The notes under the pieces are model-generated. The model did not search any database. It had not been told where the DNA came from and worked only from the letters and a program-made list of their open reading frames with translations. From the NCBI GenBank assembly GCA_005789565.1, contig SXXL01000020.1:1-56735 (forward strand): DNA of 56,735 nt. Direction: 5' to 3'. The number at the start of each line of letters is the position of its first letter. The stretch's first letter is position 1. Position numbers and translations under genes: made by a program. Of this stretch, positions 1,134 to 32,892 are shown piece by piece. The stretch comes from Bacteroidota bacterium. GTDB lineage: Bacteria; Bacteroidota; Bacteroidia; Chitinophagales; Chitinophagaceae.

Positions 1134-1580
1134 CTACCAGTTCCTCGATTGCTCCTCATTCACCCGCTCCGGCACCTCCGCCTCCCGTTCTCTCCAGTCC
1201 CGATCGTAGGAAACAAACCAGGAGATCCAGATACTTCTGCTCACCCGCATCAGCCAAGGCTGCAGCATCAATAAAAGCACCGCATTGCTCACCAGCCAGT
1301 ACAAAAAGCGATTGTCCCTCAGCCCAAACCCGATCAATACCCACCAGGCCACCAAGGTCGATACACTCAGGGCGATCGTCAACGCATAACTCACGTAGCC
1401 CGTGCCATAATAGAATCCTACCTCAATCTCCGTAGGCTGACCACAAACCGGACAATTCATGGGCATCTCCAAATTCTTTTTTAGGGATAGCTGAACACCC
1501 TGCGTAAACAACTTTCCCTCGCGACAACGCGGACAACGACATTGAAACACACTCGATAAATATCCCCGCGAACTCGACAT
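1134..1580 (-). CDS. DUF983 family protein
   Basis: A 148-residue protein of the DUF983 type. The N-terminus has a zinc-ribbon-like set of cysteines (FQCRCPRCREGKLF near residues 12-26, then MNCPVCGQPTE near 41-51). Two hydrophobic segments follow (about 60-83 and 91-112), then a charged tail. The function of this family is not established; the two CxxC pairs suggest a small metal site in front of a membrane anchor. The start is an ATG with only repeat-rich intergenic DNA around it, so it appears monocistronic. Confidence 0.85.
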   Translation of the reverse strand: MSSSRGYLSSVFQCRCPRCREGKLFTQGVQLSLKKNLEMPMNCPVCGQPTEIEVGFYYGTGYVSYALTIALSVSTLVAWWVLIGFGLRDNRFLYWLVSNAVLLLMLQPWLMRVSRSIWISWFVSYDRDWREREAEVPERVNEEQSRNW

Positions 1581-1684: not shown

Positions 1685-2203
1685 CTAATGGGGCAAGCGC
1701 TCCCGGAAAAATCCATAGGCCCAAGTCCCCGCGATCGCACTCAACAAGGTCACCACAACCGTCCAGGCACCGGCACCGATCTGGGCGAAGAGTGGACCCG
1801 GACAAGCCCCCGTCAAGGCCCAGCCAAATCCAAATAACAATCCCCCATAGATCTGCCCCTGATTGAATTTTTTATCCTCCAACCGAATGGGCTCTCCATC
1901 GATGGTCTTGATCTTGAATTTCTTGATCAGCAATACACTCAGCAGTCCCACCGCTACCGCCGATCCGATCACTCCGAACATATGAAAGCTTTGCAAGCGA
2001 AACATCTCTTGTATCCGATACCAGGAGATCACCTCCGCCTTGATGAGGATGATCCCAAATAACACTCCCGCCAAGGCGTATTTCCATTTGCTGCGCAGTG
2101 GCTCATCCAATTCCGAGCTGTTCACACAAACCGCATTGGTGCTGCGTACCTCAAAGTCAGTATCGGCCGGAATTACGCGTGTCTTATTATTTATGGTTGA
2201 CAT
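1685..2203 (-). CDS. YeeE/YedE (DUF6691-type) sulfur transport half-protein, C-terminal-like
   Basis: A 172-residue membrane protein with about four hydrophobic segments (residues about 43-60, 72-93, 120-135, 145-165). It carries the YeeE/YedE signature GACPGPLFAQIGAG near residues 130-145. The cysteine in the GxC context is the thiosulfate/sulfane-sulfur relay residue in studied YeeE (TsuA) proteins. The ATG at 2203 is preferred over an adjacent GTG. It starts 9 bases after the stop of the other half-protein (2213-2776), so the pair probably forms one two-part transporter. It is the last gene of the sulfur cluster that begins behind murF. Confidence 0.85.
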   Translation of the reverse strand: MSTINNKTRVIPADTDFEVRSTNAVCVNSSELDEPLRSKWKYALAGVLFGIILIKAEVISWYRIQEMFRLQSFHMFGVIGSAVAVGLLSVLLIKKFKIKTIDGEPIRLEDKKFNQGQIYGGLLFGFGWALTGACPGPLFAQIGAGAWTVVVTLLSAIAGTWAYGFFRERLPH

Positions 2204-2212
2204 CACAATGAT

Positions 2213-2776
2213 TTAAAGCGTTAATAAAAAAGGAAGGATCCAGTTGGCCATGAGAAATCCGCCCGCCATGAAACAGATCGTGGCCACCAGGGAAGGCCAC
2301 TGCAGGTTGCTGAGTCCCATGATCGAATGCCCCGAGGTACACCCGCCGGCATAACGAGTGCCAAATCCCACCAGAAATCCGCCTACAACCATCAATGCAA
2401 ATCCGCGCAGCGTAAAAAGTGACTCCCACGAAAACAAATCGGCCGGCACCAGGCCCGTAGCCTCCTGAACACCGTAGGTGCTCAATTCAGCGGTCAGCCG
2501 CGGATCCACCATCGGTGCCGCCCCCGAACTCAGAAAGTGCACGGCCACATAGCCGCCCACACCTACGCCGAATACGAAGAAAAGATTCCAACTCTCTTTT
2601 TTCCAATCATATCGGAAATAAGAGACGCCCGCGGGAAAACATGCGGCACAGAGATGCCGAAGCGAGGATGAAATGCCAAAGGCTTTGTTGCCGAGGAGTA
2701 AGAGCAGGGGGACGGTCAGACCGATCAACGGTCCCGCCACGTACCAAGGCCAGGGATCCAATAACCATTGTTTCAT
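2213..2776 (-). CDS. YeeE/YedE family sulfur transport half-protein
   Basis: A 187-residue protein with an N-terminal membrane segment, a further span near 65-85, a polar loop to about 125, then two more spans. The YeeE signature [13 protein letters not shown] lies at about residues 149-161, with a conserved cysteine. Together with its neighbour at 1685-2203 it corresponds to one full-length YeeE/TsuA permease split in two, an arrangement known in Bacteroidetes and Proteobacteria. A cysteine-rich LCAACFPAG near residues 41-49 is extra. The probable role is moving thiosulfate or a related sulfane-sulfur compound across the inner membrane. It lies 34 bases downstream of the dihaem cytochrome gene. 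Confidence 0.85.
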
Positions 2777-2810
2777 AAACAGGGGGTATTAAGTGAAAAA
2801 AATAAATTTA

Positions 2811-3794
2811 TCATTTGTCGCGAGCCGCCAGGATCGGTTTAAACGGACCGTATTTATGTTGCTGCTCTGAGAAGCCGTCGGTGTGCGGACCAAATGGATG
2901 ATCAAAAGGTTTCTTGGCGATATTAGGCCAATCCTCCGCAAATTTCTTTTGTGGTCTTGGCATGCTATTCACATAGGCCGATACATCCCAACTCTCTTCT
3001 ACCGTTAATTTAGGTTTGCCTGGCAAAGCCTGATTGTAGGGCATGTTGGTGTATACGTATCCGGCCATGTTCGACAATCGAAATAAGCCGGCCGATACAT
3101 TGAAGCTGTTCGCTCCCCAGAGCGGCGGGTATTCGTATTCGTTGCCGGCCAGGTTCAATTGTCCTTCGCCGTTGGTGCCGTGGCAGGACTGACACTGGTT
3201 CTGATACACGAGCTGTCCCTTCGCCGGATCGGCCGCCCGGCTCAGAAATGGGATCTTTGGGATGCCGCTGCCTTTGGGTTTATCTCCCTTGCTCACATCC
3301 TTGCCCAACCATTTGATATAGGCATAGATCGCTTGATATTCCCGGCTGTTGCTGTCGGGGGCTTGTCCATTCAAACTCCGCTGAAAACAATCGCTCACGC
3401 GTTTGTAGATGGTCTCCATTCCGCCACTTCGTTCCCGAAACTTCGGATAGGTCGAGAACACCGCACTATAATTGTTCCCATCGATCCGCTTACCGGCATT
3501 CAGATGACAATTCTGGCAATTCATGCCGTTGCTCAGGACTTGAACCGATCCACGGGGACCTAAATAACGCGACGTATGAGCGATGAGGTCTTGTCCGTAG
3601 ATAACCAATTGCCTTTCTTCTCCGTCTAATTGCTGGTCCACATGCAAACTCGGGGCGATCCAGGAACTGTCGGTTTTTTCCAGTGCTTGGGCGGATGAAT
3701 CAGTTATTCTGTTTGGAATGGATAAATAGATCAAGCCAACGACCAATAGCATGATCCAGTACAAGATCCGGTTGGAGGGGGTGTATGTAGACAT
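2811..3794 (-). CDS. Membrane-anchored dihaem c-type cytochrome, TsdA/SoxA-like
   Basis: A 327-residue protein. Residues 10-26 form an uncleaved or signal-anchor helix; the rest is periplasmic. There are two haem c sites, CQNCH at 93-97 and CQSCH at 201-205. The block after haem 1 (ERSGGMETIY...DCFQRSLNGQ, about 121-143) matches the thiosulfate dehydrogenase TsdA pattern, in which a cysteine is the distal ligand of the active haem; Cys136 is the candidate here. Met251 in NMPYN is a candidate ligand for haem 2. TsdA joins two thiosulfates to tetrathionate, or works in reverse. Oxidation of another sulfane-sulfur substrate handed over by the SoxB-like protein is an alternative. It sits 5 bases after the soxB-like stop. 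Confidence 0.8.
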   Translation of the reverse strand: MSTYTPSNRILYWIMLLVVGLIYLSIPNRITDSSAQALEKTDSSWIAPSLHVDQQLDGEERQLVIYGQDLIAHTSRYLGPRGSVQVLSNGMNCQNCHLNAGKRIDGNNYSAVFSTYPKFRERSGGMETIYKRVSDCFQRSLNGQAPDSNSREYQAIYAYIKWLGKDVSKGDKPKGSGIPKIPFLSRAADPAKGQLVYQNQCQSCHGTNGEGQLNLAGNEYEYPPLWGANSFNVSAGLFRLSNMAGYVYTNMPYNQALPGKPKLTVEESWDVSAYVNSMPRPQKKFAEDWPNIAKKPFDHPFGPHTDGFSEQQHKYGPFKPILAARDK

Positions 3795-3799
3795 AGGCT

Positions 3800-5476
3800 T
3801 TACCTGAATTCATAGGTGGTGCCCTGTAATTGCGTGAGCAGGGTGGGAGGGAAATCGGTTGCCGTGGCCCGGTTCTCTAATTTCGGTGCTACGGGCGAAT
3901 GTTGTTTCAAATACTGCTCGATCACATCGTGCATCAGCAACCCCAGCCGTTTAGGTTCTTTTACCTTCTCAATGCGACACAGCGTATCATCCGGATCACC
4001 CTCGCGCTCGCAGGCAACGATGCTATATTCTTTATTGAGGTCGATGGCTTGTCCGCCGATGGTCACCCGGTTCACGCGTTTCCCGAATTCGTTGTTAATG
4101 GTAAAATTCACTTCCATACCCGCATAGCGAACGAACCAGCCACCAAATCGCTTGGACGGATCTTTAGCGAAGGCATTCTGCAATTCTTTTTCGAGCCAAT
4201 CCCAGAGCTGTTTTCCGGTAACCTTACCGGTTTTAGCTTCGCTGTCTACCGGCAACATATTCCATAAAAATTCTTTCGTGATGGCGGCTTTTCCGGTTTT
4301 GGGATCCACGGCCAGGGGCTGACAAAACCGGAATCCGTTGCTCAGGGCAATATCGGGTTTGAATTTCCATTGGATGGCATCGGTGATGAGGTTATCCATG
4401 GGAGTTTCCATCACAAAATAACGCACCAGTGGGGTGGTGGTAGTGCCGATGACACGGTCCAGTTCCGCGGCAAATGGTTTACGCGCATCGTTCACCAGTT
4501 GATGAATTTTTTTATCGGCCGGATACAGCTCCGGATCCACCTCCAGCAATTGGTACTGATAGTTTTTCATTTTTCCGTCCGCAACTTCGATGTCGAGTTT
4601 GCCCACGAAAGAGCCGAAGGCGCCGCACTCCACTACCTTGGCATATTTTCCTTCGATGGGTACGCGGATGCGCTCATGGGTATCGGCTCCGATGATGAAA
4701 TCGGCCCCGGCCACGGCCGGGTTGTTGGCCAGGCCTACTTGTTGGGCCAGTCCCATATGCGTCATCAGGATCACGATGCCACAGCCTTCCACTTCGCGCA
4801 GCAGTTGGATGTATTTGGCTACGTTCACATCGGCATGGGCGAAACGAATGCCTTTGCTGTAGGCGGGCGACTGACGTTTGGGGGTCAGGTGATCGGTATA
4901 GCCGATGAAACCCACTTTTACACCGGCGAGGTATTTGGTCCAATACGGCGGAAAGATCAATTCCTCCGAGCCCTCGTGCCACATGTTGGCGCAGATCTTG
5001 GCGGCCGTGGCATGCCCCATGTCGTAGAGCATTTTATGTTTCTTGTAAACGACTTCCCAGTTACCGGGCAGGATCAGGTCGTATTGAAATTCATTGAGCA
5101 GGGGGATCAGGGCTTCCCCTTCGGTAAGTGACGCGACGGCATGTCCATGGAAGTAATCGCCTCCATCGAGCAGCAGTGTATGGTCGGGATTTTGCGCGCG
5201 TAACCGATCGATCATGGTCTTGAGGTGTGAGAGTCCGCCCCGCTTACGATAAACGGCTTGGTCGTTTTCCCAGAAGAATTCATCGTGTACATTCAATTGG
5301 GCATGCAGGTCGGCTGTAATGAGCAGGGTAATTCGATTGCCGCGATCGCTGGTAACTGACTTCGAGTCCTCCTCGGAATTGGCTGCCGCATACGACAGGG
5401 GTAGGGAGGCAGCCAGGGAGGCCAGGGAGGCGTGTTTCAGGAAAGAACGCCGGCTGTTGGGATGGGTAGGTTTCAT
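3800..5476 (-). CDS. SoxB-like / 5'-nucleotidase family metallophosphoesterase, Tat-exported
   Basis: A 558-residue protein, the usual length for SoxB. It has a Tat signal (SRRSFLKHA, residues 8-16, then an Ala/Leu core). Metal-site motifs of the 5'-nucleotidase superfamily follow in order: DLHAQ at 56-60, GGDYFHGH at 105-112, GNWE at 138-141, MTH near 238-240 and GADTHER at 263-269. The C-terminal 5'-nucleotidase domain starts near residue 340. SoxB hydrolyses sulfate from SoxY-bound thiosulfate. Here GNWE mixes the GNHE of nucleotidases (Asn kept) with the HWE of SoxB (Trp kept). No SoxY, SoxZ, SoxA or SoxX is adjacent, so the substrate is open. It lies between the rhodanese and cytochrome genes with gaps of 11 and 5 bases. 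Confidence 0.8.
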   Translation of the reverse strand: MKPTHPNSRRSFLKHASLASLAASLPLSYAAANSEEDSKSVTSDRGNRITLLITADLHAQLNVHDEFFWENDQAVYRKRGGLSHLKTMIDRLRAQNPDHTLLLDGGDYFHGHAVASLTEGEALIPLLNEFQYDLILPGNWEVVYKKHKMLYDMGHATAAKICANMWHEGSEELIFPPYWTKYLAGVKVGFIGYTDHLTPKRQSPAYSKGIRFAHADVNVAKYIQLLREVEGCGIVILMTHMGLAQQVGLANNPAVAGADFIIGADTHERIRVPIEGKYAKVVECGAFGSFVGKLDIEVADGKMKNYQYQLLEVDPELYPADKKIHQLVNDARKPFAAELDRVIGTTTTPLVRYFVMETPMDNLITDAIQWKFKPDIALSNGFRFCQPLAVDPKTGKAAITKEFLWNMLPVDSEAKTGKVTGKQLWDWLEKELQNAFAKDPSKRFGGWFVRYAGMEVNFTINNEFGKRVNRVTIGGQAIDLNKEYSIVACEREGDPDDTLCRIEKVKEPKRLGLLMHDVIEQYLKQHSPVAPKLENRATATDFPPTLLTQLQGTTYEFR

Positions 5477-5487
5477 GCGGGTACGTA

Positions 5488-5874
5488 CTATTTTTCGGTA
5501 GGGCCGGACCAGCCTTGTATGCCCCCATCCAGATCGGATACGTGCTTAAATCCATTTTGCAGCATCAGTTCCATGGCTCGTTTGCTGCGTTTACCGCTGC
5601 GGCAGTACACCACGTAGGGTTTGGATTTGTCGAGCGACTGAATGTGTTGTAAGAAGTTGGCCTCCTGCAATACATCCATCAGGCTGGCGCCGGGGATATG
5701 CCCCTCTTTGTATTCGCCGTCGGTGCGGGCGTCGATCAGGCTGACCTTTCCGCGGTCCGACAGCTTCTTTAATTCTGTGGAAGAAATGGAAGTGCCGGCG
5801 GTGGGCAACCGATTGATCGTGCAGGCGGACAACAACATGCCCAACAGCAAGAGGGTCGTTACATTCTTTTTCAT
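5488..5874 (-). CDS. Rhodanese-like lipoprotein
   Basis: 128 residues from the ATG at 5874. That start gives a clean lipoprotein signal (MKKN, hydrophobic core, lipobox LLSAC near residue 18), so it is preferred over a TTG at 5892 that overlaps the murF stop. The mature part is one rhodanese domain: LIDARTDGEYKEGHIPGA, then the active-site loop YCRSGKRS with the catalytic cysteine, and a closing GGIQGW. A basic loop after the cysteine favours sulfane-sulfur rather than phosphate chemistry. It would sit on the periplasmic or outer-membrane face. It begins 14 bases after murF and ends 11 bases before the SoxB-like gene, so it is likely a sulfur carrier or persulfide handler for this cluster. 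Confidence 0.88.
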   Translation of the reverse strand: MKKNVTTLLLLGMLLSACTINRLPTAGTSISSTELKKLSDRGKVSLIDARTDGEYKEGHIPGASLMDVLQEANFLQHIQSLDKSKPYVVYCRSGKRSKRAMELMLQNGFKHVSDLDGGIQGWSGPTEK

Positions 5875-5888
5875 GGTCGATAATTTTT

Positions 5889-7169
5889 TCAAATCTCCAG
5901 CAGACGCTCCATACGCTGGCTACGACTTCCTTTGATCAGTACATGACAATGCTCAAACCTTTGCTGATGATACCAATCCCGCGCGGCAATCGAATCGGAA
6001 AAGCCTCGGTAGGGATGTTCCAGTTTCAGAAAATCGCCGCCTACCAGTACCACTTCTTTCCAGGGGTGTTGTTTGATCAGCTCCAGGATCTGTTGGTGTT
6101 CGGCCAGGCTATCCTCACCCAGCTCGGCCATGGCACCCAGCATCAATATCTTGTTGTCGGCCTCCAGTCGCATGAGGTTTTCTATGGCCAGTCGCATGCT
6201 GCTGGGATTGGCATTATAGGCATCGAGGATGATGTGGTTGGTGCCTTGTGTGATCAGCTGCGAGCGGCTGTTCGAGGGCGTGTACGATTCAATGGCCTGA
6301 CGGATCTTTTCCGGAGCCACTTGAAAATGGGTTCCCACCGCCACGGCCATCAGCACATTGGGCAGGTTATAATCGCCTACCAGTTGGGTTCGGATGCGTC
6401 CGATCAGTGCCCCTTTGGTCATTTCTACTTCGAGAAAAGGCTGGGCCTGACGGATGGTTCCTTCGATGTCGGCTTCTTGGGTTCCGTATGTAAGAATATT
6501 GGGAATACCGGCACTCATTTGACGCAGGTAGTCGTAGTCCCACATCACAAACGCGGTTCCCTGGATGTTTCGAAGGTGGTCATAGAGTTCGCCTTTGCCT
6601 TTTCGTACGCCTTCCACACCGCCGAATCCCTCGAGGTGTGCTTTGCCGCAGTTGGTGATGATGCCGTGCGAGGGGGCAGCGTAGGTGCAATAGCCGGCGA
6701 TCTCTTGTTGGTGGTTGGCGCCCATTTCCACTACGGCCATTTCGGCATCGAGCGGAATGCGCAGCAGGGTGAGGGGGATACCGATGTGATTATTGAGATT
6801 GCCGGTGGTGGTGGCGGTTTTATAGGTGGTGGAGAGTACGGCGTGCACCAATTCTTTGGAGGTGGTTTTGCCGTTGCTGCCGGTGATGCCGAGGACCGGA
6901 ATGGTCAGTTGCCTGCGGTGATGGGCGGCCAGTGCTTGCAGGGATTTCAATACGTTCGGAACCAGAATGGTTCTTTCACAGGTCATGTAGTCCGGTTCAT
7001 CGATGATCGCGTAGGCGGCTCCTTGTTCGAGGGCTTGGGCGGCGTATTGATTGCCGTTGAATTGGTCGCCTTTGAGGGCGAAGAACAGACAGCCGGAAGC
7101 AAGGGAGCGCGTGTCGGTTTGTACGAGGGGATGCTGCAGATACAGTTGGTAAAGTTCTTCGATCGGCAT
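5889..7169 (-). CDS. murF: UDP-N-acetylmuramoyl-tripeptide--D-alanyl-D-alanine ligase
   Basis: A 426-residue Mur ligase. It adds D-Ala-D-Ala to UDP-MurNAc-tripeptide in the cytoplasm, the last soluble step of the peptidoglycan precursor. Visible motifs are the N-terminal MurF substrate domain (DTRSLASGCLFFALKG near 19-35), the ATP-binding P-loop GITGSNGKTTSKE near 94-106, the central MGANHQQEI and the C-terminal DAYNANPSSM. The start is the ATG at 7169, only 16 bases after a terminator hairpin that closes gldJ. A perfect -7 box ends 4 bases before this ATG, so the mRNA may be leaderless. It is the first gene of a six-gene run that continues into the sulfur genes. Confidence 0.97.
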   Translation of the reverse strand: MPIEELYQLYLQHPLVQTDTRSLASGCLFFALKGDQFNGNQYAAQALEQGAAYAIIDEPDYMTCERTILVPNVLKSLQALAAHHRRQLTIPVLGITGSNGKTTSKELVHAVLSTTYKTATTTGNLNNHIGIPLTLLRIPLDAEMAVVEMGANHQQEIAGYCTYAAPSHGIITNCGKAHLEGFGGVEGVRKGKGELYDHLRNIQGTAFVMWDYDYLRQMSAGIPNILTYGTQEADIEGTIRQAQPFLEVEMTKGALIGRIRTQLVGDYNLPNVLMAVAVGTHFQVAPEKIRQAIESYTPSNSRSQLITQGTNHIILDAYNANPSSMRLAIENLMRLEADNKILMLGAMAELGEDSLAEHQQILELIKQHPWKEVVLVGGDFLKLEHPYRGFSDSIAARDWYHQQRFEHCHVLIKGSRSQRMERLLEI

Positions 7170-7231: not shown

Positions 7232-8797
7232 TCAGCGTTTTTGACGACGCGTGGGGAAATATTGTCCGGTCTTGCGACGGTTTCCTTCGGGTGAACCCAG
7301 GCGACTCATGGCACAACGGAATCCGATGGTGCTCATGGCTTGGTCTTGTTCGAGGTAGCGACGGGCACCGGGACTGAGCCAGTAGGCGCGATCGTTCCAG
7401 CTGCCGCCTTTGTACACTTTCGAACGCTCGGGGTCCAACAGCGTAGAGATCCCGTATCCGTATTTCACTTGAGAAACAGTGTCGCCATCCAGGAAGCTGA
7501 TCACGTTACCGCGCTGATAGTTTCGGCGATTCTTGCTTTCCTCGTCGGTGACGTTGACTTTCTTGACGCGGCCCAGGCTGTCTTTCTCATAGCGGGTGGA
7601 AGGATCCAGGGTGGTCGGATCGGCTACGTAGAGTTTCTGGTATTTGTTTCCGCGGAAGGGTGCGGGTTGATCGTCGAAGTCCAACGAGTTCATCGGACGA
7701 TAGGTATCCTCCACCCACTCGCTCACGTTTCCGGCCATGTTGTACAGTCCGAAATTGTTGGGGTAGAAAGAATTGGCCGGAGCCGTATAAAAGGCGCGGT
7801 CGTTCAATCCACCGGAAACCCCGGCGTTGTCGCCCGAGCCACGCTTGAAGTTGGCCAGGAATACACCTTGCCAGCTACCCCGGCGGGTGTCACGCAGTCC
7901 GTTTACATTTTGTGACCAGGGAAAAACTTGTTTATTCTGCTGCAATTCCTCTCCGCGTTTTCCTTCTTTGATCGAGGGGCGGGGGTTTTGTCCGATGAGT
8001 CCGTAAGCGGCAAATTCCCACTCGGCTTCAGTTGGCAGACGGTACTCCGGCAGCATGGTACCCGATTCTACGTTGGCAGGCATGGGCGGCAGACCGCTTC
8101 CTTTTTTCTTCAAGGCCGCACCGGGAGGGGCATTGTATAGTCCCAATAAGTAAGAGCGGGTATTGAAGTTGTTATCGCCTTGCTGGGCACCGGGCTTCAT
8201 GTTGGCTTTATTGATATAGCCCTTTTGGATGAGGGTGTTTTCGTTCACGCGGTCGGTGCGCCAGAGACAATAGTCTTTGGCCTGCTCCCAACTAACGCCC
8301 ACGACAGGATAGTCGTTGAAGCCGGGGTGACGGAAATAATACTCCACCATAGGCTCATTGAAGCTAAGCTCGCTGCGCCAGACCAGGGTATCGGGCATGG
8401 CTCCTTCGATCACCGGCATGTATTGCGGGTCGGAAGGATCGAAGACACGATTGAGCCAATGCAAATATTCGCGGTAGTGTACGTTGGTCACCTCGGTACG
8501 ATCGAGGTAGAAAGAAGGCACGGATACCCGACGGGGAATGTTGTTCCAATCGCCCATTACATCCTCTTCGGTCTGTCCCATCATGAACGTACCACCCTCG
8601 ACAAATACCAGGCCGGGACCCAGTCCCTGTTCCTTGGATTTGGCGACGCGGAATCCACCTTGGTTCTTGTCGTTGTAGTTCCATCCCGTGGCGTCCGATT
8701 TATCGAACTTCTTTTTCCCGAACAGGCCGCTTTTACAAGAGCTGAGCAGCACGGTCAGGGCCAGGAGCCACGAAAGGGATTTGAGTCGTTGTTGCAT
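7232..8797 (-). CDS. gldJ: Gliding motility lipoprotein GldJ (SUMF1/FGE-fold)
   Basis: A 521-residue lipoprotein: signal peptide with lipobox LLSSC, Cys21 lipidated. It has a formylglycine-generating-enzyme-like (SUMF1) fold, with VFVEGGTFMMGQTEED near 65-80, RTEVTNVHYREYL, LPTEAEWEFAA, NMAGNVSEWVEDTYR and the closing KGGSWND/GFRCAMS. GldJ has the fold without a known enzyme role. With GldK it belongs to the outer-membrane track/ring part of the type IX secretion and gliding machinery. It is divergent from porU-porV, the neighbourhood also known in Flavobacterium johnsoniae, which supports GldJ over GldK. The start is an ATG at 8797; the 3' end has its own terminator. Confidence 0.92.
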   Translation of the reverse strand: MQQRLKSLSWLLALTVLLSSCKSGLFGKKKFDKSDATGWNYNDKNQGGFRVAKSKEQGLGPGLVFVEGGTFMMGQTEEDVMGDWNNIPRRVSVPSFYLDRTEVTNVHYREYLHWLNRVFDPSDPQYMPVIEGAMPDTLVWRSELSFNEPMVEYYFRHPGFNDYPVVGVSWEQAKDYCLWRTDRVNENTLIQKGYINKANMKPGAQQGDNNFNTRSYLLGLYNAPPGAALKKKGSGLPPMPANVESGTMLPEYRLPTEAEWEFAAYGLIGQNPRPSIKEGKRGEELQQNKQVFPWSQNVNGLRDTRRGSWQGVFLANFKRGSGDNAGVSGGLNDRAFYTAPANSFYPNNFGLYNMAGNVSEWVEDTYRPMNSLDFDDQPAPFRGNKYQKLYVADPTTLDPSTRYEKDSLGRVKKVNVTDEESKNRRNYQRGNVISFLDGDTVSQVKYGYGISTLLDPERSKVYKGGSWNDRAYWLSPGARRYLEQDQAMSTIGFRCAMSRLGSPEGNRRKTGQYFPTRRQKR

Positions 8798-8876
8798 AAA
8801 CCTATGAATTGGAATACTTTTAACGACCGAAAAGGTGTTTTATTGCACAGGCTTGGAACGCCTTCAGGTCGAATTG

Positions 8877-8907
8877 CGAATATAGACGCTTTTTGGGAGA
8901 TCGGAAA
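8877..8907 (-). promoter_or_regulatory. Putative gldJ promoter
   Basis: On the minus strand, TTTC (8904-8907), 19 bases, then TATATTCG (8877-8884), which is TAnnTTTG with one mismatch. The spacing fits the Bacteroidetes -33/-7 arrangement. It would leave a leader of about 70 bases before gldJ. Confidence 0.4.
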
Positions 8908-8919
8908 TAGGGCTTTTAC

Positions 8920-8927
8920 TAAATTTT
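8920..8927 (+). promoter_or_regulatory. Weak putative -7 box for porU
   Basis: TAAATTTT differs from TAnnTTTG at the last base and lies 35 bases before the porU ATG. The nearest TTTTTG upstream is about 24 bases away, longer than usual. Confidence 0.22.
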
Positions 8928-8962
8928 TAAGGGAGAAATCCCATAGAACCAAGGGGTTATTG

Positions 8963-11900
8963 ATGAACCGTTTCGCCACTTTTTTGATTTTTTTAGCAAC
9001 CGCGGCAGTGCCAAAACTGTTGGAAGGACAACGCAGCTATGCATCCCATTCCGTGCTGGCTGCCGGAAGCTGGATCAAGTTGGCGGTTCCGCAAGCCGGA
9101 TTGTATAAAGTGGAGGGTGCTCGGTTGCAGGCAGGCGGACTACTCTCCCTGCCGGTTTCTTCGGCTTCGCTTCGGTTGTTTTCGAAGGGGGGCGGTCCGT
9201 TGAGCGAGTCCAATGCCGGACCTTACACCGACGACCTCAAAGAGATCGCGCTCGATGTTTTTGATGGCGGAGATGGTCAGTTTCAGTCCACCGATTATTT
9301 TCTCTTCTACGCCCCTGGTCCGCATCGCTGGCAGGCGGATCTTCCCAACGGACTTTTTCACTTTCAAAAGAATCTCTACACCGATTCGGGGTACTATTAT
9401 TTTACCGCGACGGGGGTTGGCAAACGCGTGAGCGATCAACCGGCCACGGGCAGTAGTGGTCCCCTGATCGATCGTTTCCTCGACCGACAGGTCTATGAAT
9501 TGGATTCCGTGAATTTGCTCTCGAGCGGCAAAGAATGGTACGGCGATGAACTCGCTCAAGCACCGGGAAAAACGTTGCTGAAGGATCTTGCTTTTTCGTT
9601 TCCCAACCTGGTCTCCGGAGCAACGGCGCGCTTGCGCAGCCGCGTGTTGGCCCGCAGTACCGGCTCGGGGTCTCGCTTCGATCTGGCGGCGAATGGATCT
9701 TTGATCGGGCAACAAGCCATTCCGCCCGTCGGCACACAGCTCTACGATCCGTTTGCCATTGCGCGAACCGACCTGTTGTCCTTTCCGCTCAACACCCCTT
9801 CTCTCACCCTCCGTTATCAATATCAGCCCGGTGCTTTCGGCGCGCAAGCATGGATCGATCGGGTGGAAGTATTTGCCCAGCGGACGTTATCGATGACTGG
9901 ATCGAGAAGCTTGTCGTTTCGGGACCCGGGAACGGTGGGTCAGGCCGCCGTGCAATACCGTATTCAATCCGCTCCGACCGATCTTTCCGTTTGGGATGTA
10001 ACCGATCCCTTCGAGGTGCGTCGCCTGCAAGGCGACCGAAACGGATCCGAGTATCGGATCCAAGCGAGCGCCACCAACCTGAAAGAGTTTCTGGCCTTTA
10101 GCGGCACCGATTTTCCGGCACCCCGCGTGGCGGGGTGGGTGCCCAATCAGGATTTACACGGACTGGGCCCCACCGATATGGTGATCGTGGTGCCGGCGGC
10201 TTGGCGGGCGGCCGCCGACAAGCTGGCCAGTAGTCATCGCAACCGAAGCGGTTTGCGGGTGCAGGTGATCGCGGTGGAGCAGGTGCGCGAAGAGTTTGGG
10301 GGTGGCGTGAATGATCCCACCGCGATTCGAGACCTGATGAAGATGTTCTACGATCGGCAGCGGAATAATCCGGCCGACCGCCCTCGGTATTTGTTGTTGA
10401 TGGGTGCCGGTTCATACGATCCCCAAGCACGCATTCGCAACAACGATGCGCCGCTTCCAACCTATCAAAGCATGGAATCCCTCGATCCGCTGGGTACGTA
10501 TTGCACGGATGATTATTTCGGGTTGTTGGATGATGCGGAGGATATTCAGAATCCGGCTATTCAAAATCTGTTGGACCTGGGTATTGGTCGGATCCCGGCC
10601 CGTTCGTTGGCCGAGGCGATGGCGTATGTCGATAAGACCTTGGCCTATGCCGATACGGCCTCGAGGGGAAGTTGGCAAACGCGGATCAGTTTTCTCGCAG
10701 ACGATGAGGATGGGAATTTGCATTTGTCCGATGCCGAAGGCATGTCTTCGGCGACCCGGCAAGTGGCGCCCTGGCTCAATACCCAAAAGATCTATTTGGA
10801 TGCGTATCGGCAAGAAGCCGGGGCAGCGGGTACGCGCTATCCGGAGGCGAACCGGGCGGTGGATCGGGAGATCTTCAAAGGGAATTTGATCGTGAATTAT
10901 ACCGGGCATGGAGGAAAGGAACAATTGGCCGAGGAAGTATTGATCTCCCGAAGCATGGTGGAAGGTTGGAAAAATGGCGATCGGTTGCCGTTGTTCATTG
11001 TGGGTACCTGTGATTTTGCGCCGTATGACAATCCGGCGGCGCGGGGACTGGGCGAACGGTTATTGGTCAAACCCGTATCGGGTGCGATCGGACTGTTGTC
11101 GACGGCTCGTCCAGTTTTCGCGTTCAGCAACCGGATCTTGCATGAGAATTATTTGCGGGTGGCCCTGCAGCCCGAAGGGTCGGGCCGGTATTTGTCCCTC
11201 GGCGAGTCGATCCAAAAAGCCAAGAATCTGACGTATCAGACCTCATCGGACCTGATCAACAACCGCAAGTTCAGTTTGCTGGGTGATCCGGCGTTGACGT
11301 TGGCCTTTCCGTCCGACCGCGTCCAGACGGTGCGGATCAATGGCCAGCCGGTTTCCGCTTCCGACACGATCAAGGCCGGCGCGAAACTGCTGATCGAGGG
11401 AGAGGTTACCGACCGAAACGGACAACGCTTAAATGGATTTAATGGCTGGGTATATCCCACCGTCTTTGACAAGCCGCGGGCACAAACAACCTTGGCCAAC
11501 GATCCGGGTTCGCTCGCGGTACCGGTGGAAATGCCGGGGGCGATTTTGTTCAGCGGGGTCTCGACCGTGCGAGACGGACGATTTCAATTCGAGTTCACCG
11601 CCCCGCTGGATATGAATCCGGTGGTGGGGAAGGGACGGATCAGTTATTATGCGCGTTCGGGTACCAGTGATGCACAAGGTTTTGGGGAAGATATTTGGGT
11701 AGGGGATCGGAGCGGAGCACTGTCGACAGACCGGGATGGTCCGGCAATCCGGCTCTCGCTCAATCAGCCCGGATTTGCCGATGGGGGACTCACCCATGCC
11801 ACCCCGGTTCTGATCGCCGAACTAACCGACTCCTCCGGCATCAATACCGCCGGCGGCATCGGCCACGACCTCCAGGCCACCCTGAACGCCTCAACCCTCA

Positions 11901-12391
11901 ACCCGCAACTATATACCCTTAACGATTTCTACCAGTCCGCCCCCAATACCCACCAAAAAGGTACGATCCGCTACCCTTTGCCCACCTTGGCCCCGGGGAC
12001 ATATACTTTGAAGTTGCGTGCCTGGGATGTGCTCAATAATTCGAGCGAAAAAACCCTCTCTTTTGTGGTGGGGGATGGCGAGAACCTTCGGATCGAGCGG
12101 GTCTTGAATTATCCCAACCCATTCACGTCCGCCACCCGGTTTTGGTTCGAACACAATGCACCCGGGCAGTGGTTACGGATATCGGTGGAGGTAATGACCC
12201 TTACCGGGCGGGTGGTGCGGACCCTGCGGGCCGAGGCACTTTCCGAGGGGAATTTTTACCGCGACCTGGAGTGGGACGGGCGCGATGAGCAGGGCGATCG
12301 GCTGGGACGGGGCACATATTTATATCGGCTACGGGTTCGTTGTGCCGGTAAAGGAGAGGCCTCCCAGGTGGAGAAACTGGTTATCCTCTAG
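8963..12391 (+). CDS. porU: Type IX secretion system sortase PorU (C25 peptidase fold)
   Basis: 1142 residues from the ATG at 8963. The open frame runs further upstream, but that part is antisense to gldJ, and MNRFATFLIFLATAAV gives a proper signal peptide. PorU sits at the outer membrane, cuts off the C-terminal sorting domain of secreted cargo and attaches the cargo to A-LPS. The gingipain-like C25 domain is visible: YLLLMGAGSYDP, TDDYFGLLDD, then YTGHGG with His649 and VGTCDFAP with Cys683, the expected catalytic pair (close to the position recalled for the Porphyromonas gingivalis enzyme). The end has a FlgD-like NYPNPF...GRGTYLYRL domain. porV follows 184 bases downstream on the same strand. 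Confidence 0.95.
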   Translation: MNRFATFLIFLATAAVPKLLEGQRSYASHSVLAAGSWIKLAVPQAGLYKVEGARLQAGGLLSLPVSSASLRLFSKGGGPLSESNAGPYTDDLKEIALDVFDGGDGQFQSTDYFLFYAPGPHRWQADLPNGLFHFQKNLYTDSGYYYFTATGVGKRVSDQPATGSSGPLIDRFLDRQVYELDSVNLLSSGKEWYGDELAQAPGKTLLKDLAFSFPNLVSGATARLRSRVLARSTGSGSRFDLAANGSLIGQQAIPPVGTQLYDPFAIARTDLLSFPLNTPSLTLRYQYQPGAFGAQAWIDRVEVFAQRTLSMTGSRSLSFRDPGTVGQAAVQYRIQSAPTDLSVWDVTDPFEVRRLQGDRNGSEYRIQASATNLKEFLAFSGTDFPAPRVAGWVPNQDLHGLGPTDMVIVVPAAWRAAADKLASSHRNRSGLRVQVIAVEQVREEFGGGVNDPTAIRDLMKMFYDRQRNNPADRPRYLLLMGAGSYDPQARIRNNDAPLPTYQSMESLDPLGTYCTDDYFGLLDDAEDIQNPAIQNLLDLGIGRIPARSLAEAMAYVDKTLAYADTASRGSWQTRISFLADDEDGNLHLSDAEGMSSATRQVAPWLNTQKIYLDAYRQEAGAAGTRYPEANRAVDREIFKGNLIVNYTGHGGKEQLAEEVLISRSMVEGWKNGDRLPLFIVGTCDFAPYDNPAARGLGERLLVKPVSGAIGLLSTARPVFAFSNRILHENYLRVALQPEGSGRYLSLGESIQKAKNLTYQTSSDLINNRKFSLLGDPALTLAFPSDRVQTVRINGQPVSASDTIKAGAKLLIEGEVTDRNGQRLNGFNGWVYPTVFDKPRAQTTLANDPGSLAVPVEMPGAILFSGVSTVRDGRFQFEFTAPLDMNPVVGKGRISYYARSGTSDAQGFGEDIWVGDRSGALSTDRDGPAIRLSLNQPGFADGGLTHATPVLIAELTDSSGINTAGGIGHDLQATLNASTLNPQLYTLNDFYQSAPNTHQKGTIRYPLPTLAPGTYTLKLRAWDVLNNSSEKTLSFVVGDGENLRIERVLNYPNPFTSATRFWFEHNAPGQWLRISVEVMTLTGRVVRTLRAEALSEGNFYRDLEWDGRDEQGDRLGRGTYLYRLRVRCAGKGEASQVEKLVIL

Positions 12392-12426: not shown

Positions 12427-12482
12427 GGGCTCCTTCCTCGTTATCCAGCGGGAGGATCAGCCCTGGATTGATGGAAATCCAT
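12427..12482 (+). other. Stem-loop and small palindrome between porU and porV
   Basis: GGGCT (12427-12431) pairs with AGCCC (12459-12463), with an inner TCCTC/GAGGA pairing. A separate ATGGA-AA-TCCAT inverted repeat follows at 12471-12482. No U-tract follows, so it is not a standard terminator. It may be processed mRNA structure or a regulator site; function unknown. Confidence 0.35.
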
Positions 12483-12546
12483 GAGTTTCAGTGTTTTTGC
12501 TCCCGAAAAAAAATCTTTTTTTATCAGGGTTTTGTAGAAAAGCCCC

Positions 12547-12554
12547 TATATTTA
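12547..12554 (+). promoter_or_regulatory. Putative -7 box for porV
   Basis: TATATTTA, one mismatch from TAnnTTTG, ends 21 bases before the porV ATG. No well-spaced -33 element is seen; a TTTTG lies only 12 bases upstream. Confidence 0.4.
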
Positions 12555-12575
12555 CACCACTCTAAAACCTTTCTA

Positions 12576-13721
12576 ATGAGACCAACTGCTTTGAAACTTA
12601 CGGCTGCACTGCTATTGCTCAGCGGTGTGTCAAACCATGTTATGGCCCAGGCTGACCCTATCAATGTGGTCACTACGGCTGTTCCTTTTTTGCGTATTTC
12701 TCCTGATGCTCGTTCCGGTGGAATGGGTGAGATGGGGATTGCGACCAGTCCCGACACCTATTCCGGTTTTTGGAATATCGGTAAAGCGGCGTTCAACACG
12801 TCTAAAGCTCGGATCGCGGCAACATACACTCCCTGGATGCGTGACCTGGTAGGCGATGTTTACCTGGCCTCTGCAACCGGTTTCTACAAAATGTCTGACG
12901 ACCAAGCCATCACTGGTTCGGTTCGTTATTTCAGTTTGGGAAACATCACCTTCACCGATAACCTCGGAAACGACTTCGGTAATTTCCGTCCCCGTGAATT
13001 CGGTATCGATGTAGGATATAGCCGCAAACTCAACGACAAGAGCGGTGTGGGTATCACCTTAAAGTATATCAACTCCAACCTGGCCGGCGGTACAACCGTT
13101 GGTAGCACAACATATCAGGCCGGTAGCGCCATCGCAGCCGACCTCGGATATTATCACACCAACAAAGGCGCTTCCGGAACCGGAATGGCATGGGGTGTTA
13201 CCCTTTCCAACCTGGGTTCCAAGATCGCCTACACCGACAACGCGGATGCCAAGGATTTCATCCCGGCTAACCTCGGTGCCGGTATCAACTACACCAAGAA
13301 GTACAACGACAAGAACACTTTGTCGCTGGGTCTGGAGACCAACAAACTGTTGGTGCCCACGCCTCCTGCAGAGGGAGACGCTGCTGCCCTGGCCGCTTAC
13401 CGCAGCAAAGGTGTCGTGAGCAGCTGGTTGAGTTCCATGGGCGATGCGCCTGGTGGATTCGGCGAAGAGCTGAAAGAATTCCAGTGGTCTTTGGGTGCTG
13501 AGTATGTTTACAACAAGCAGTTCGCCCTCCGTGCTGGTTATTTCTATGAGAATGTAACCAAGGGTAATCGTCGTTACTTCACAACCGGTATGGGTGTGAT
13601 GTACAACATTTTCTACTTCAATTTCGCTTACCTGATCCCCACGGGAAGTGGTGTGACACGCAATCCGTTGTCCAACACCCTGCGCTTCTCCGTAGCATTC
13701 GATCTGGATAAGAAAAAATAA
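12576..13721 (+). CDS. porV: Type IX secretion outer-membrane protein PorV (LptO)
   Basis: 381 residues from the ATG at 12576. The frame is open further upstream but without a signal; this start gives a signal peptide ending near VMAQA. The mature protein looks like a FadL-type outer-membrane beta-barrel with many short alternating strands. It opens with the PorV hallmark NVVTTAVPFLRISPDARSGG, MGEMGIAT, and ends in an aromatic-rich barrel closure. PorV collects cargo from the SprA translocon and passes it to PorU for cleavage. It sits directly behind porU and has a strong terminator 20 bases after its stop. Its codon use is more uniform than its neighbours, as expected for an abundant protein. 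Confidence 0.95.
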   Translation: MRPTALKLTAALLLLSGVSNHVMAQADPINVVTTAVPFLRISPDARSGGMGEMGIATSPDTYSGFWNIGKAAFNTSKARIAATYTPWMRDLVGDVYLASATGFYKMSDDQAITGSVRYFSLGNITFTDNLGNDFGNFRPREFGIDVGYSRKLNDKSGVGITLKYINSNLAGGTTVGSTTYQAGSAIAADLGYYHTNKGASGTGMAWGVTLSNLGSKIAYTDNADAKDFIPANLGAGINYTKKYNDKNTLSLGLETNKLLVPTPPAEGDAAALAAYRSKGVVSSWLSSMGDAPGGFGEELKEFQWSLGAEYVYNKQFALRAGYFYENVTKGNRRYFTTGMGVMYNIFYFNFAYLIPTGSGVTRNPLSNTLRFSVAFDLDKKK

Positions 13722-31362: not shown

Positions 31363-31387
31363 AGGAATTAGGTGGCAGCGTATTTTT

Positions 31388-31414
31388 CCTTCACCCTTCA
31401 CCCTTCATCCTTCA
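31388..31414. repeat. CTTCACCC/CTTCATCC intergenic word repeats
   Basis: CCTTCACCCTTCACCC followed by TTCATCCTTCATT lies just before the SLC13 promoter. The reverse complement of the same words is found at 33943-33971 in another gap. Confidence 0.7.
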
Positions 31415-31419
31415 TTGAA

Positions 31420-31427
31420 TATCTTTG
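31420..31427 (+). promoter_or_regulatory. -7 box TATCTTTG, 4 nt before the SLC13 ATG
   Basis: TATCTTTG-GTCT-ATG. Full consensus with the recurrent 4-base spacing, so a leaderless transcript is predicted. Confidence 0.55.
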
Positions 31428-31431
31428 GTCT

Positions 31432-32892
31432 ATGTTGATTTCGTTTTGGAAAAAGCGTTTCGCTCGGTTTTTACTGGCGGTTGTATTGGGGATATTGATG
31501 TACGCCATAGATCCGCTTGCCTTGGACCCTGCTGCTGCTGCCTTGTTGGCCGTGGCCCTTACGATGATCGTTCTCTGGGTGACGGAGGCGCTTTCCATGC
31601 CGGTGGTGGCGCTGATGCCGTTGTTCCTTTTTCCCTTGTTGAAAATTCAATCCATCGAAGAAGTTTCGAGGGCCTATGCCAATCCGGTGATCTTTTTGTT
31701 CCTGGGCGGATTTTTACTCGGACTCGCCATCGAGAAATGGGATCTCCACCGCCGCATCGCCCTGGGTATCATTCGGAAGACCGGCTCCGGTGGCGACCGG
31801 ATCATTCTGGGTTTCATCCTCTCCACTTCTTTCATCAGTCTTTGGCTCAGCAATACCGCCACCACGATGATGATGTTTCCCATCGCGCTCTCGGTGATTC
31901 AAGTGCTCAAACAGAAAAAAGAATTGGAGGGTAACCTGCCTCATTTTTCCATCAGCCTGATGTTGTCCATCGCCTACGCTTCCAACCTGGGCGGCATCGG
32001 CACCATCATCGGCACCCCGCCAAACGTTGCCTATGTGGCCTATATAGAAAAAGAAGTACCGGGATTGCAGATCGGTTTTTTGAATTGGATGTTGCTGGCC
32101 CTGCCACTGGGCTTGCTGTTGGTGCTGGCCCTGTATGTAGTGATGGTCAAGTGGCTTTACCCGAACCGCATACGTTCCAGTGAGATCATGGATAGCGTCA
32201 TAGATGCAGAGTGGAAGGCCCTGGGACCCATGACCGGGTCCCAAAAACGCGTGCTGTGGATCTTTGGCTTCACCGTTTTGCTGTGGATGACACGAGTATT
32301 GATCAACCAGATCCAACCTTGGATCGTGCTGGACGATACCTTGATCGCCCTACTCGGCGGCTTTGGTTTATTTCTTTGTCCGGTGCATCCCTCCGATCGA
32401 AAAGAAGATGCTGCCGACAGACATTTACTGGAATGGTCCGACACCGAAAAACTGGCCTGGGGAATTTTATTGTTGTTCGGGGGCGGACTGGCCCTGGCCG
32501 GTGCCTTGGAAAAAGCGGGACTGATCAGTCAGCTCGGCAGCTGGCTTTCCACCTACGCTACGGCCGGATTCTGGCTCATCTTGTTGATCACCACCCTATC
32601 GCTTTTCATCAGCGAGGTCATGAGCAACGTGGCGCAGGTGATCGTCCTCGCCCCGGTTGTCACTGCCTTGGCCACGGCCCTGGGCGTTCATCCGCTGCAG
32701 TTGGGGATACCGATGACCCTGGCCGCCAGTTGCGCCGGCATGCTGCCCATGGGTACACCTCCCAATGCCATCGTGTTCGCCAGCGGACAACTTCGCTTGC
32801 GCCACATGCTGATCGTTGGGGGCGTGATGAACCTGATCGCGATCGTATTGATCACGTTGTTCAGCTGGTTCTTGCTGCCAATGATCTTCTGA
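31432..32892 (+). CDS. SLC13/DASS family anion symporter
   Basis: 486 residues from the ATG at 31432 (MLISFWKKR). A divalent anion:sodium symporter with about 11-12 hydrophobic segments. The two family signatures are visible: SNTATTMMMFPIAL with GTIIGTPPNVAYV in the first half, and SEVMSNVAQVIVLAP with GMLPMGTPPNAIVFASG in the second. The SNT/SNV-x-G-T motifs bind Na+ and carboxylate. Likely substrates are C4-dicarboxylates, citrate or sulfate; sequence alone does not decide. It sits alone between opposite-strand genes and ends 6 bases before the convergent PorP/SprF gene. Confidence 0.93.
   Translation: MLISFWKKRFARFLLAVVLGILMYAIDPLALDPAAAALLAVALTMIVLWVTEALSMPVVALMPLFLFPLLKIQSIEEVSRAYANPVIFLFLGGFLLGLAIEKWDLHRRIALGIIRKTGSGGDRIILGFILSTSFISLWLSNTATTMMMFPIALSVIQVLKQKKELEGNLPHFSISLMLSIAYASNLGGIGTIIGTPPNVAYVAYIEKEVPGLQIGFLNWMLLALPLGLLLVLALYVVMVKWLYPNRIRSSEIMDSVIDAEWKALGPMTGSQKRVLWIFGFTVLLWMTRVLINQIQPWIVLDDTLIALLGGFGLFLCPVHPSDRKEDAADRHLLEWSDTEKLAWGILLLFGGGLALAGALEKAGLISQLGSWLSTYATAGFWLILLITTLSLFISEVMSNVAQVIVLAPVVTALATALGVHPLQLGIPMTLAASCAGMLPMGTPPNAIVFASGQLRLRHMLIVGGVMNLIAIVLITLFSWFLLPMIF

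Follow-up and report, generated by a model that had tools for sequence, protein, structure and literature searches.

How could thiosulfate be oxidized in a bacterium in which no carrier protein of the classical Sox system is found? The question is raised by five genes in a stretch of 56,735 nucleotides (hereafter the window), which is contig SXXL01000020.1 of the Bacteroidota assembly GCA_005789565.1. The genome (G000, in which the window is contig C12) measures 1.875 Mb and is 94.5% complete, and its nearest named relatives in a scan of named genomes are metagenome-assembled genomes (MAGs) of the Chitinophagaceae. The five genes lie behind murF and encode a lipoprotein rhodanese, a SoxB-like hydrolase, a TsdA-type cytochrome and two half-size YeeE proteins. 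Sequence comparison indicates that many Bacteroidota carry a larger cluster, of which this set is most likely a reduced form. Its role is probably a periplasmic thiosulfate oxidation of the TsdA-SoxB kind, in a form proper to this phylum.

Gene content and occurrence in Bacteroidota

All five open reading frames are uninterrupted, lie on the minus strand and are tightly packed. The single-domain rhodanese (5488..5892, with an ATG at 5874) matches Pfam Rhodanese at 8.9e-24; its lipobox LLSAC and active loop CRSGKRS are recognized by eye in the translation, and it is 58% identical to the cluster rhodanese of a related genome (G036). It is followed by the SoxB-like dimetal hydrolase (3800..5476), with a twin-arginine (Tat) export leader, NSRRSFLK, read by eye at the N-terminus, by the dihaem cytochrome (2811..3794) and by the two YeeE halves, YeeE1 (2213..2776) and YeeE2 (1685..2206). 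According to these coordinates, the successive intergenic gaps are 11, 5, 34 and 6 bases. A first-pass annotation, made from the letters alone, had described five tightly spaced genes with gaps of 5-34 bases under the names used here; the intact frames and the gaps confirm it, and Pfam and NCBIfam searches agree with the names of all five products.

The association between hydrolase and cytochrome was evaluated in 97 genomes, the window genome included. The SoxB-like protein, searched at 1e-20, was matched in 23 of them; in 18 the identity is about 48% or higher, and the remaining five matches are distant and of nucleotidase type. TsdA, searched at 1e-30, was found in 30 genomes, that is, in 18/18 with the SoxB-like gene versus 12/79 without it (Fisher p 5e-12, relatedness not being corrected for). 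In all 18 loci (L001-L018) TsdA lies at most 1.5 kb from the hydrolase. Because the cytochrome accompanies the hydrolase in every one of these genomes and loci, a chance arrangement is ruled out. The earlier view that the genes belong together is supported, and a route served jointly by cytochrome, SoxB-like hydrolase and YeeE remains the best reading.

The scan of named genomes gave at least 530 confirmed matches, of which the best 80 were fetched; by their titles, these 80 records belong to Bacteroidota or to uncultured bacteria. The 47 loci flanked by 5 kb in either direction were used and the other 33 were dropped. Within 8 kb, TsdA is found in 42 of the 47 loci, TauE in 32, each of the YeeE halves in 32, DsrE in 28, an OprD-type porin in 26, Crp in 24 and rhodanese in 19, while a metallo-β-lactamase (MBL) protein read as persulfide dioxygenase (PDO) is labelled in 38, a count that may be inflated since neighbours were labelled by tblastn at 1e-4 and PDO and rhodanese can be confused through their shared domain. 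A comparison of gene order in other Bacteroidota had been proposed as a check; the content proves widespread in the phylum, in sets usually larger than that of the window, and the fact that most of it is retained in spite of a shuffled order speaks for function. Plasmid pRUNSL04 of Runella slithyformis DSM 19594 (L184, NC_015705.1, 3871-16765) bears the full cluster, with TauE, two MBL proteins, the cytochrome, DsrE, the hydrolase, the OprD porin, both YeeE genes and DUF983, and a like set is present on a plasmid of R. rosea. Its location in the cultured strain DSM 19594 suggests that plasmids can carry the module.

The absence of SoxYZ and SoxA, claimed by the first-pass annotation for the stretch itself, extends to the genome as far as it is assembled. 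SoxY gave no match in the window genome; among 395 genomes sampled from the phylum, the same search was positive at 0.001 in 47 (45 above the cut-off). SoxZ was found neither in this genome nor in eight others that encode a hydrolase of the same clade (clade F, described below), and it was present in all three SoxY-positive control genomes. For SoxA, searched in 12 genomes, matches above the cut-off occurred in two, both among the three controls, of which the third gave no match; in the window genome nothing rose above the cut-off, and the sole weaker match is the TsdA gene itself. A full Sox locus elsewhere in the genome is thus rejected on the searches for SoxY, SoxZ and SoxA, with about 5% of the genome possibly missing and with SoxX and SoxCD not searched for. 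In the phylum sample, an F-type hydrolase (at least 600 bits) is encoded by 19 of the 395 genomes, none of them among the 47 with SoxY; this mutual exclusion is by itself non-significant (Fisher p 0.15). One family (f38) comprises 18 genomes with a weaker hydrolase match, and all of these have a SoxY match.

The hydrolase, the cytochrome and the YeeE halves

The NCBI equivalog model for SoxB, TIGR04486, gives the window hydrolase 267 bits versus a cut-off of 550, whereas the SoxB proteins of Rhodobacter and Methylosinus reach 860 and 849. Naming the protein SoxB on this score was discarded, because a nucleotidase-type Pontibacter protein scores 281 bits. Its affiliation was instead examined in two trees, one of 58 rows, 32 of which belong to clade F, and one in which the two longest branches were omitted and F was thinned to 12 rows. 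In the 58-row tree, clade F has a support of 100/99, canonical SoxB of 100/100 and a third clade, I, of 100/100; the last comprises sequences from Bradyrhizobium, Novosphingobium, Daejeonella, a second Pontibacter gene and five further genomes. F, I and canonical SoxB together are separated from the nucleotidases at 99/98 without the two longest branches and at 95/93 with them.

The residues of clade F combine features of its relatives with features of its own. The motif GNWE is present in 32/32 F rows, so that the catalytic His of GNH[ED], a motif kept in 8/8 nucleotidase rows, is a Trp; the canonical SoxB and I rows read His-Trp-Glu/Asp (16/16), and the canonical ones among them always His-Trp-Glu (7/7). 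In 31 of the 32 F rows Asp265 replaces the His of G-H-x-H that all 26 other rows retain, the window protein reading DTH. The Arg of the S[NP]G[FWV]R loop (SNGFR in the window) is shared by all 48 rows of F, I and canonical SoxB, including 32/32 in F, whereas the eight nucleotidases have Gly at this position and Arg in none (0/8). R491 of clade F is aligned with Phe or Tyr in 7/8 nucleotidase rows, and the Phe at this place presumably stacks the nucleotide base in UshA. Finally, C489 and C500 are invariant in the 32 F rows and in 43/43 rows of a second alignment (A2), whose proteins are partly shared with the first; among the rows of other clades, the pair occurs solely in X_L197, a long-branch row. 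An AlphaFold model of the hydrolase (predicted local distance difference test, pLDDT, 84.6) was compared by Foldseek with known structures; normalized by query length, the highest TM-score among the 50 rows listed is that of the Thermus thermophilus SoxB 2wdc (0.80), and the best nucleotidase, 2z1a, reaches 0.76.

The window hydrolase is therefore a SoxB relative in a wide sense, which fails the canonical tests of score and HWE motif. It is this protein that looks new; its clade stands beside canonical SoxB and is separate from the 5′-nucleotidases, with a mixed metal-site signature and two invariant cysteines. In Pontibacter akesuensis Paks1 (L185, NZ_CP014767.1, 3601-11745), three different members of the SoxB/nucleotidase superfamily, of types N, I and F, are found together; their neighbours are a rhodanese, a c-type cytochrome resembling TsdA and a putative exporter of sulfate. 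The hydrolase of locus L112 carries a Cys-rich N-terminal leader.

The cytochrome is of the type of dihaem thiosulfate dehydrogenases/tetrathionate reductases. Its best match in the PDB is 5lo9 (phmmer 3.6e-38), followed by the TsdA entries 4wqc (A. vinosum-type TsdA, 1e-37), 4wq7 and 4v2k. Both CxxCH motifs are kept; the axial ligand C136 is conserved in 79/79 rows with a letter at this position (80 rows in all) and M251 in 80/80. A Cys-S-thiosulfonate intermediate has been reported for TsdA (PMC4423706). In the cluster TsdAs the C-terminal stretch past the region matched in the PDB, which ends at residue 282-284, contains an invariant H313 (QHKYGP, 80/80 rows). As for the YeeE proteins, YeeE1 is of the C-terminal-half type (PmpA-like) and YeeE2 of the N-terminal-half type (PmpB-like, DUF6691), and they match the corresponding halves of TsuA. 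Each retains its half-specific cysteine, C146 of GGCTSGH in 57/57 rows and C135 of TGACPG in 54/55.

The murF locus and the proposed route

Within the genus, the place behind murF occurs in three states. Nine congeners (L027, L028, L030-L036; the sequence of L034 ends inside the last gene and that of L033 inside murF) hold a larger locus, in the order Crp/Fnr, TauE, MBL-rhodanese-rhodanese protein, rhodanese(s), DsrE-like protein and/or OprD-type porin, SoxB-like, TsdA, YeeE and YeeE. The MBL-rhodanese-rhodanese protein, of 472 and 484 amino acids in two fully read copies and only 35% identical between L035 and L036, is called PDO because it resembles the MBL-rhodanese structures 3tp9 and 3r2u and, more weakly, ETHE1. 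Five other congeners (L240-L244) have TauE and PDO at the same place, accompanied in some by Crp, rhodanese or the YeeE pair; neither the SoxB-like nor the TsdA gene was found at this locus or elsewhere in their genomes. The third state is that of the window, with SoxB-like, TsdA and YeeE genes and without Crp, TauE and PDO. The window genome has no close copy of the cluster PDO. The paralogue present, at 54%, is an MBL-rhodanese gene at G000:C23:41587-42963 (L246:5563-6954) which adjoins an ArsR-type gene; many relatives have comparable paralogues, matched by the query at about 50-56%. The cluster TauE was not found in the genome, which has a distant TauE-family frame on contig C24, and neither was the cluster porin; Crp is missing at the locus and was not searched for genome-wide. 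The porin was likewise not found in G033 and G034 although the hydrolase is present, so it is not a constant member of the cluster.

Since the larger unit occupies this position in nine congeners and no close copies of the cluster PDO, TauE or porin were found in the genome, the window copy is most likely the larger locus with a part lost. A compact unit as the original state was rejected on the same grounds. In view of the regulator, TauE and PDO of the congeners, the claim of the first-pass annotation that this is a minimal pathway in its own right is not supported.

The adjacency to murF (5889..7169, minus strand; TIGR01143, 338 bits) is a synteny common to the genus, and this conserved upstream neighbour lies outside the pathway. 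The rhodanese ATG is placed 14 bases past the end of murF, and an alternative in-frame TTG at 5892 would create a 4-base overlap; an assembly error may be present at this junction. Near murF and gldJ, the type IX secretion genes porU and porV occupy 8558-12391 and 12468-13721. On the other side of the unit, a DUF983-like small protein (1134..1580, minus strand) is 45% identical to a Runella DUF983 protein by tblastn and has no Pfam match at 0.001. A DUF983 gene is the downstream neighbour in some relatives and lies near the hydrolase in 5/47 related loci; whether it is a member of the cluster is unsure. The window also contains, at 31372-32892, a sodium-coupled anion symporter of the DASS family.

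We infer the reactions and the direction of flow from the gene content, its conservation, the residues, the clade and the absence of SoxY, SoxZ and SoxA. TsdA would join two thiosulfates into tetrathionate at its Cys-ligated haem 1 and pass two electrons to the respiratory chain; a haem-copper oxidase is encoded in the window genome (COX1, 471 bits). The Tat-exported hydrolase of clade F would then cut off the sulfonate of tetrathionate (or trithionate) as sulfate, with no participation of SoxYZ, leaving sulfane sulfur. This sulfur could be accepted or moved by the lipoprotein rhodanese, and the paired YeeE halves would bring a sulfur species inward, into the cytoplasm. In most relatives, the neighbouring PDO may make sulfite for export by TauE; in the window genome, the distant PDO paralogue may substitute, or the sulfur may be assimilated. 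The order of steps is most likely the cytochrome first, forming tetrathionate, and the hydrolase second.

A variant that we regard as quite unlikely makes the hydrolase of clade F a self-loading SoxB. C489 and C500, predicted to lie at the substrate loop, which binds the base in nucleotidases, would react with tetrathionate to give a Cys-S-thiosulfonate; once sulfate has been released, they would retain the sulfane sulfur until the rhodanese or DsrE unloads it. If true, one protein would do the work of SoxB and SoxYZ.

Several observations weigh against thiosulfate oxidation of the TsdA-SoxB kind. TIGR04486 fails to separate the hydrolase from nucleotidases, the grouping of F with I has a support of only 81/82, and both trees are midpoint-rooted and include no SoxB of Erythrobacter flavus. 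The metal site, with N139 and D265, is unlike both SoxB and nucleotidase. By target length the TM-scores are level (0.83 for 2z1a, 0.82 for 2wdc), and a 5′-nucleotidase ranks first in the PDB both in the sequence search and by the E-value of Foldseek (in the latter, Escherichia coli 3ive). TsdA is not found within 8 kb in 5/47 loci; in four of these, from Niastella and Longitalea (L109, L112, L117, L119), no sulfur gene that was looked for turned up in this range, and the hydrolase is also alone in L208 and L209. The enzyme activities are predictions from sequence, and without the cluster PDO and TauE the full path cannot run in the window genome as it would in relatives.

One rival reading, in our judgement decidedly unlikely, takes the SoxB-like protein for a nucleotidase of the periplasm, or for another phosphohydrolase, that merely stands beside sulfur genes. 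Its closeness in fold and sequence to UshA-type 5′-nucleotidases, a SoxB model score no higher than that of a nucleotidase, the copies found alone and the public annotation as 5′-nucleotidase in three Bacteroidota plasmid records would fit such a role. They are outweighed by the loss of the catalytic His to Trp throughout clade F, by its invariant Arg (32/32) where nucleotidases mostly have Phe or Tyr, by the grouping with canonical SoxB and by the constant company of TsdA. A somewhat greater, though still low, probability is given to TsdA working in reverse. Tetrathionate would then serve as an electron acceptor or be detoxified by conversion to thiosulfate; YeeE and rhodanese would use this thiosulfate as a sulfur source, and the SoxB-like protein would clear by-products. 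TsdA enzymes are bidirectional, and it has been reported that the tetrathionate reductase TsdA of Campylobacter jejuni has Asn-Met at haem 2 (PMC5146829), as does the window TsdA; moreover, YeeE has been described as a thiosulfate importer in E. coli (PMC11073785). However, according to the same report (PMC5146829), TsdAs differ in the residue that precedes the Met at haem 2, and in C. jejuni this residue alone did not set the direction; the frequent PDO and TauE neighbours together with the oxygen reductase of the genome favour oxidation. Very improbable, finally, is a decaying unit whose remainder became functionless after the loss of PDO, TauE and the regulator. Those three are indeed missing from the locus, but the five genes are open with their key residues kept, the hydrolase shares 83-84% identity with the closest full-length proteins of congeners, and the PDO paralogue and the distant TauE-family frame remain.

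Relation to known systems

Thiosulfate oxidation without SoxYZ has been described in E. flavus 21-3, where tetrathionate rises in a soxB deletion and is undetected in a tsdA deletion (PMC7608252, 2020). In the pathway proposed there, thiosulfate is converted to tetrathionate, which is hydrolyzed to sulfate and zero-valent sulfur (PMC7608252), and a tsdA mutant still makes zero-valent sulfur from added tetrathionate (PMC9426585). It has also been reported that a small molecule, trithionate, is a substrate of SoxB (PMC5336275). Eight MAGs from Bohai Sea sediments were reported to have SoxB together with TsdA and no other Sox genes (PMC12345210), Zhang et al. named Bacteroidetes among the taxa with both tsdA and soxB (PMC7608252), and a study of an Arctic lake reported tsdA and pdo-rhodanese genes in bins assigned to Bacteroidetes (PMC7887784). 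In a literature search of limited extent, among the matches listed, no title or beginning of an abstract dealt with the Bacteroidota cluster or the motifs of clade F.

If the proposed route is true, carrier-free thiosulfate oxidation would extend to many Bacteroidota, whose hydrolase is labelled as 5′-nucleotidase in the three plasmid records mentioned above, and tetrathionate turnover where SoxYZ is missing could find an explanation. Clade F would be a direct test case for SoxB chemistry without SoxYZ. The three locus states of the genus (TauE-dioxygenase only, both, hydrolase-TsdA only) could separate sulfur detoxification from thiosulfate oxidation.

Among known systems, the half-size YeeE pairs PmpA/PmpB and SoxT, as presented in PMC11582611, are likewise two half proteins each with its own conserved Cys; the window halves are longer (187 and 173 versus about 130 amino acids) and are joined to tsdA and the soxB-like gene. 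UshA and CD73 share the fold of the hydrolase, whereas in clade F the catalytic His has become Trp, the GHxH His has become Asp and the Phe/Tyr position of the substrate loop has become Arg. The S4-intermediate pathway with TetH shares the tetrathionate intermediate, as we infer it here, and differs in that a hydrolase of metallophosphoesterase fold takes the place of TetH in the window unit (TetH was not searched for). With the Sox system (SoxXA-YZ-B-CD) there are in common the SoxB fold and the kinship of the SoxA and TsdA haem domains; SoxY, SoxZ and SoxA were not found here, and the window hydrolase falls outside the canonical clade. The nearest known system is the TsdA-SoxB(-Sdo) pathway of E. 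flavus, which equally combines TsdA with a SoxB-type hydrolase (in the wide sense) in the absence of SoxYZ, and which resembles the fuller Bacteroidota clusters in their MBL dioxygenase and rhodanese. The Bacteroidota units differ from it by the addition of YeeE halves, TauE, an OprD-type porin and a lipoprotein rhodanese, and by a hydrolase with GNWE and DTH in place of the canonical HWE and HTH, the window copy being also without the dioxygenase.

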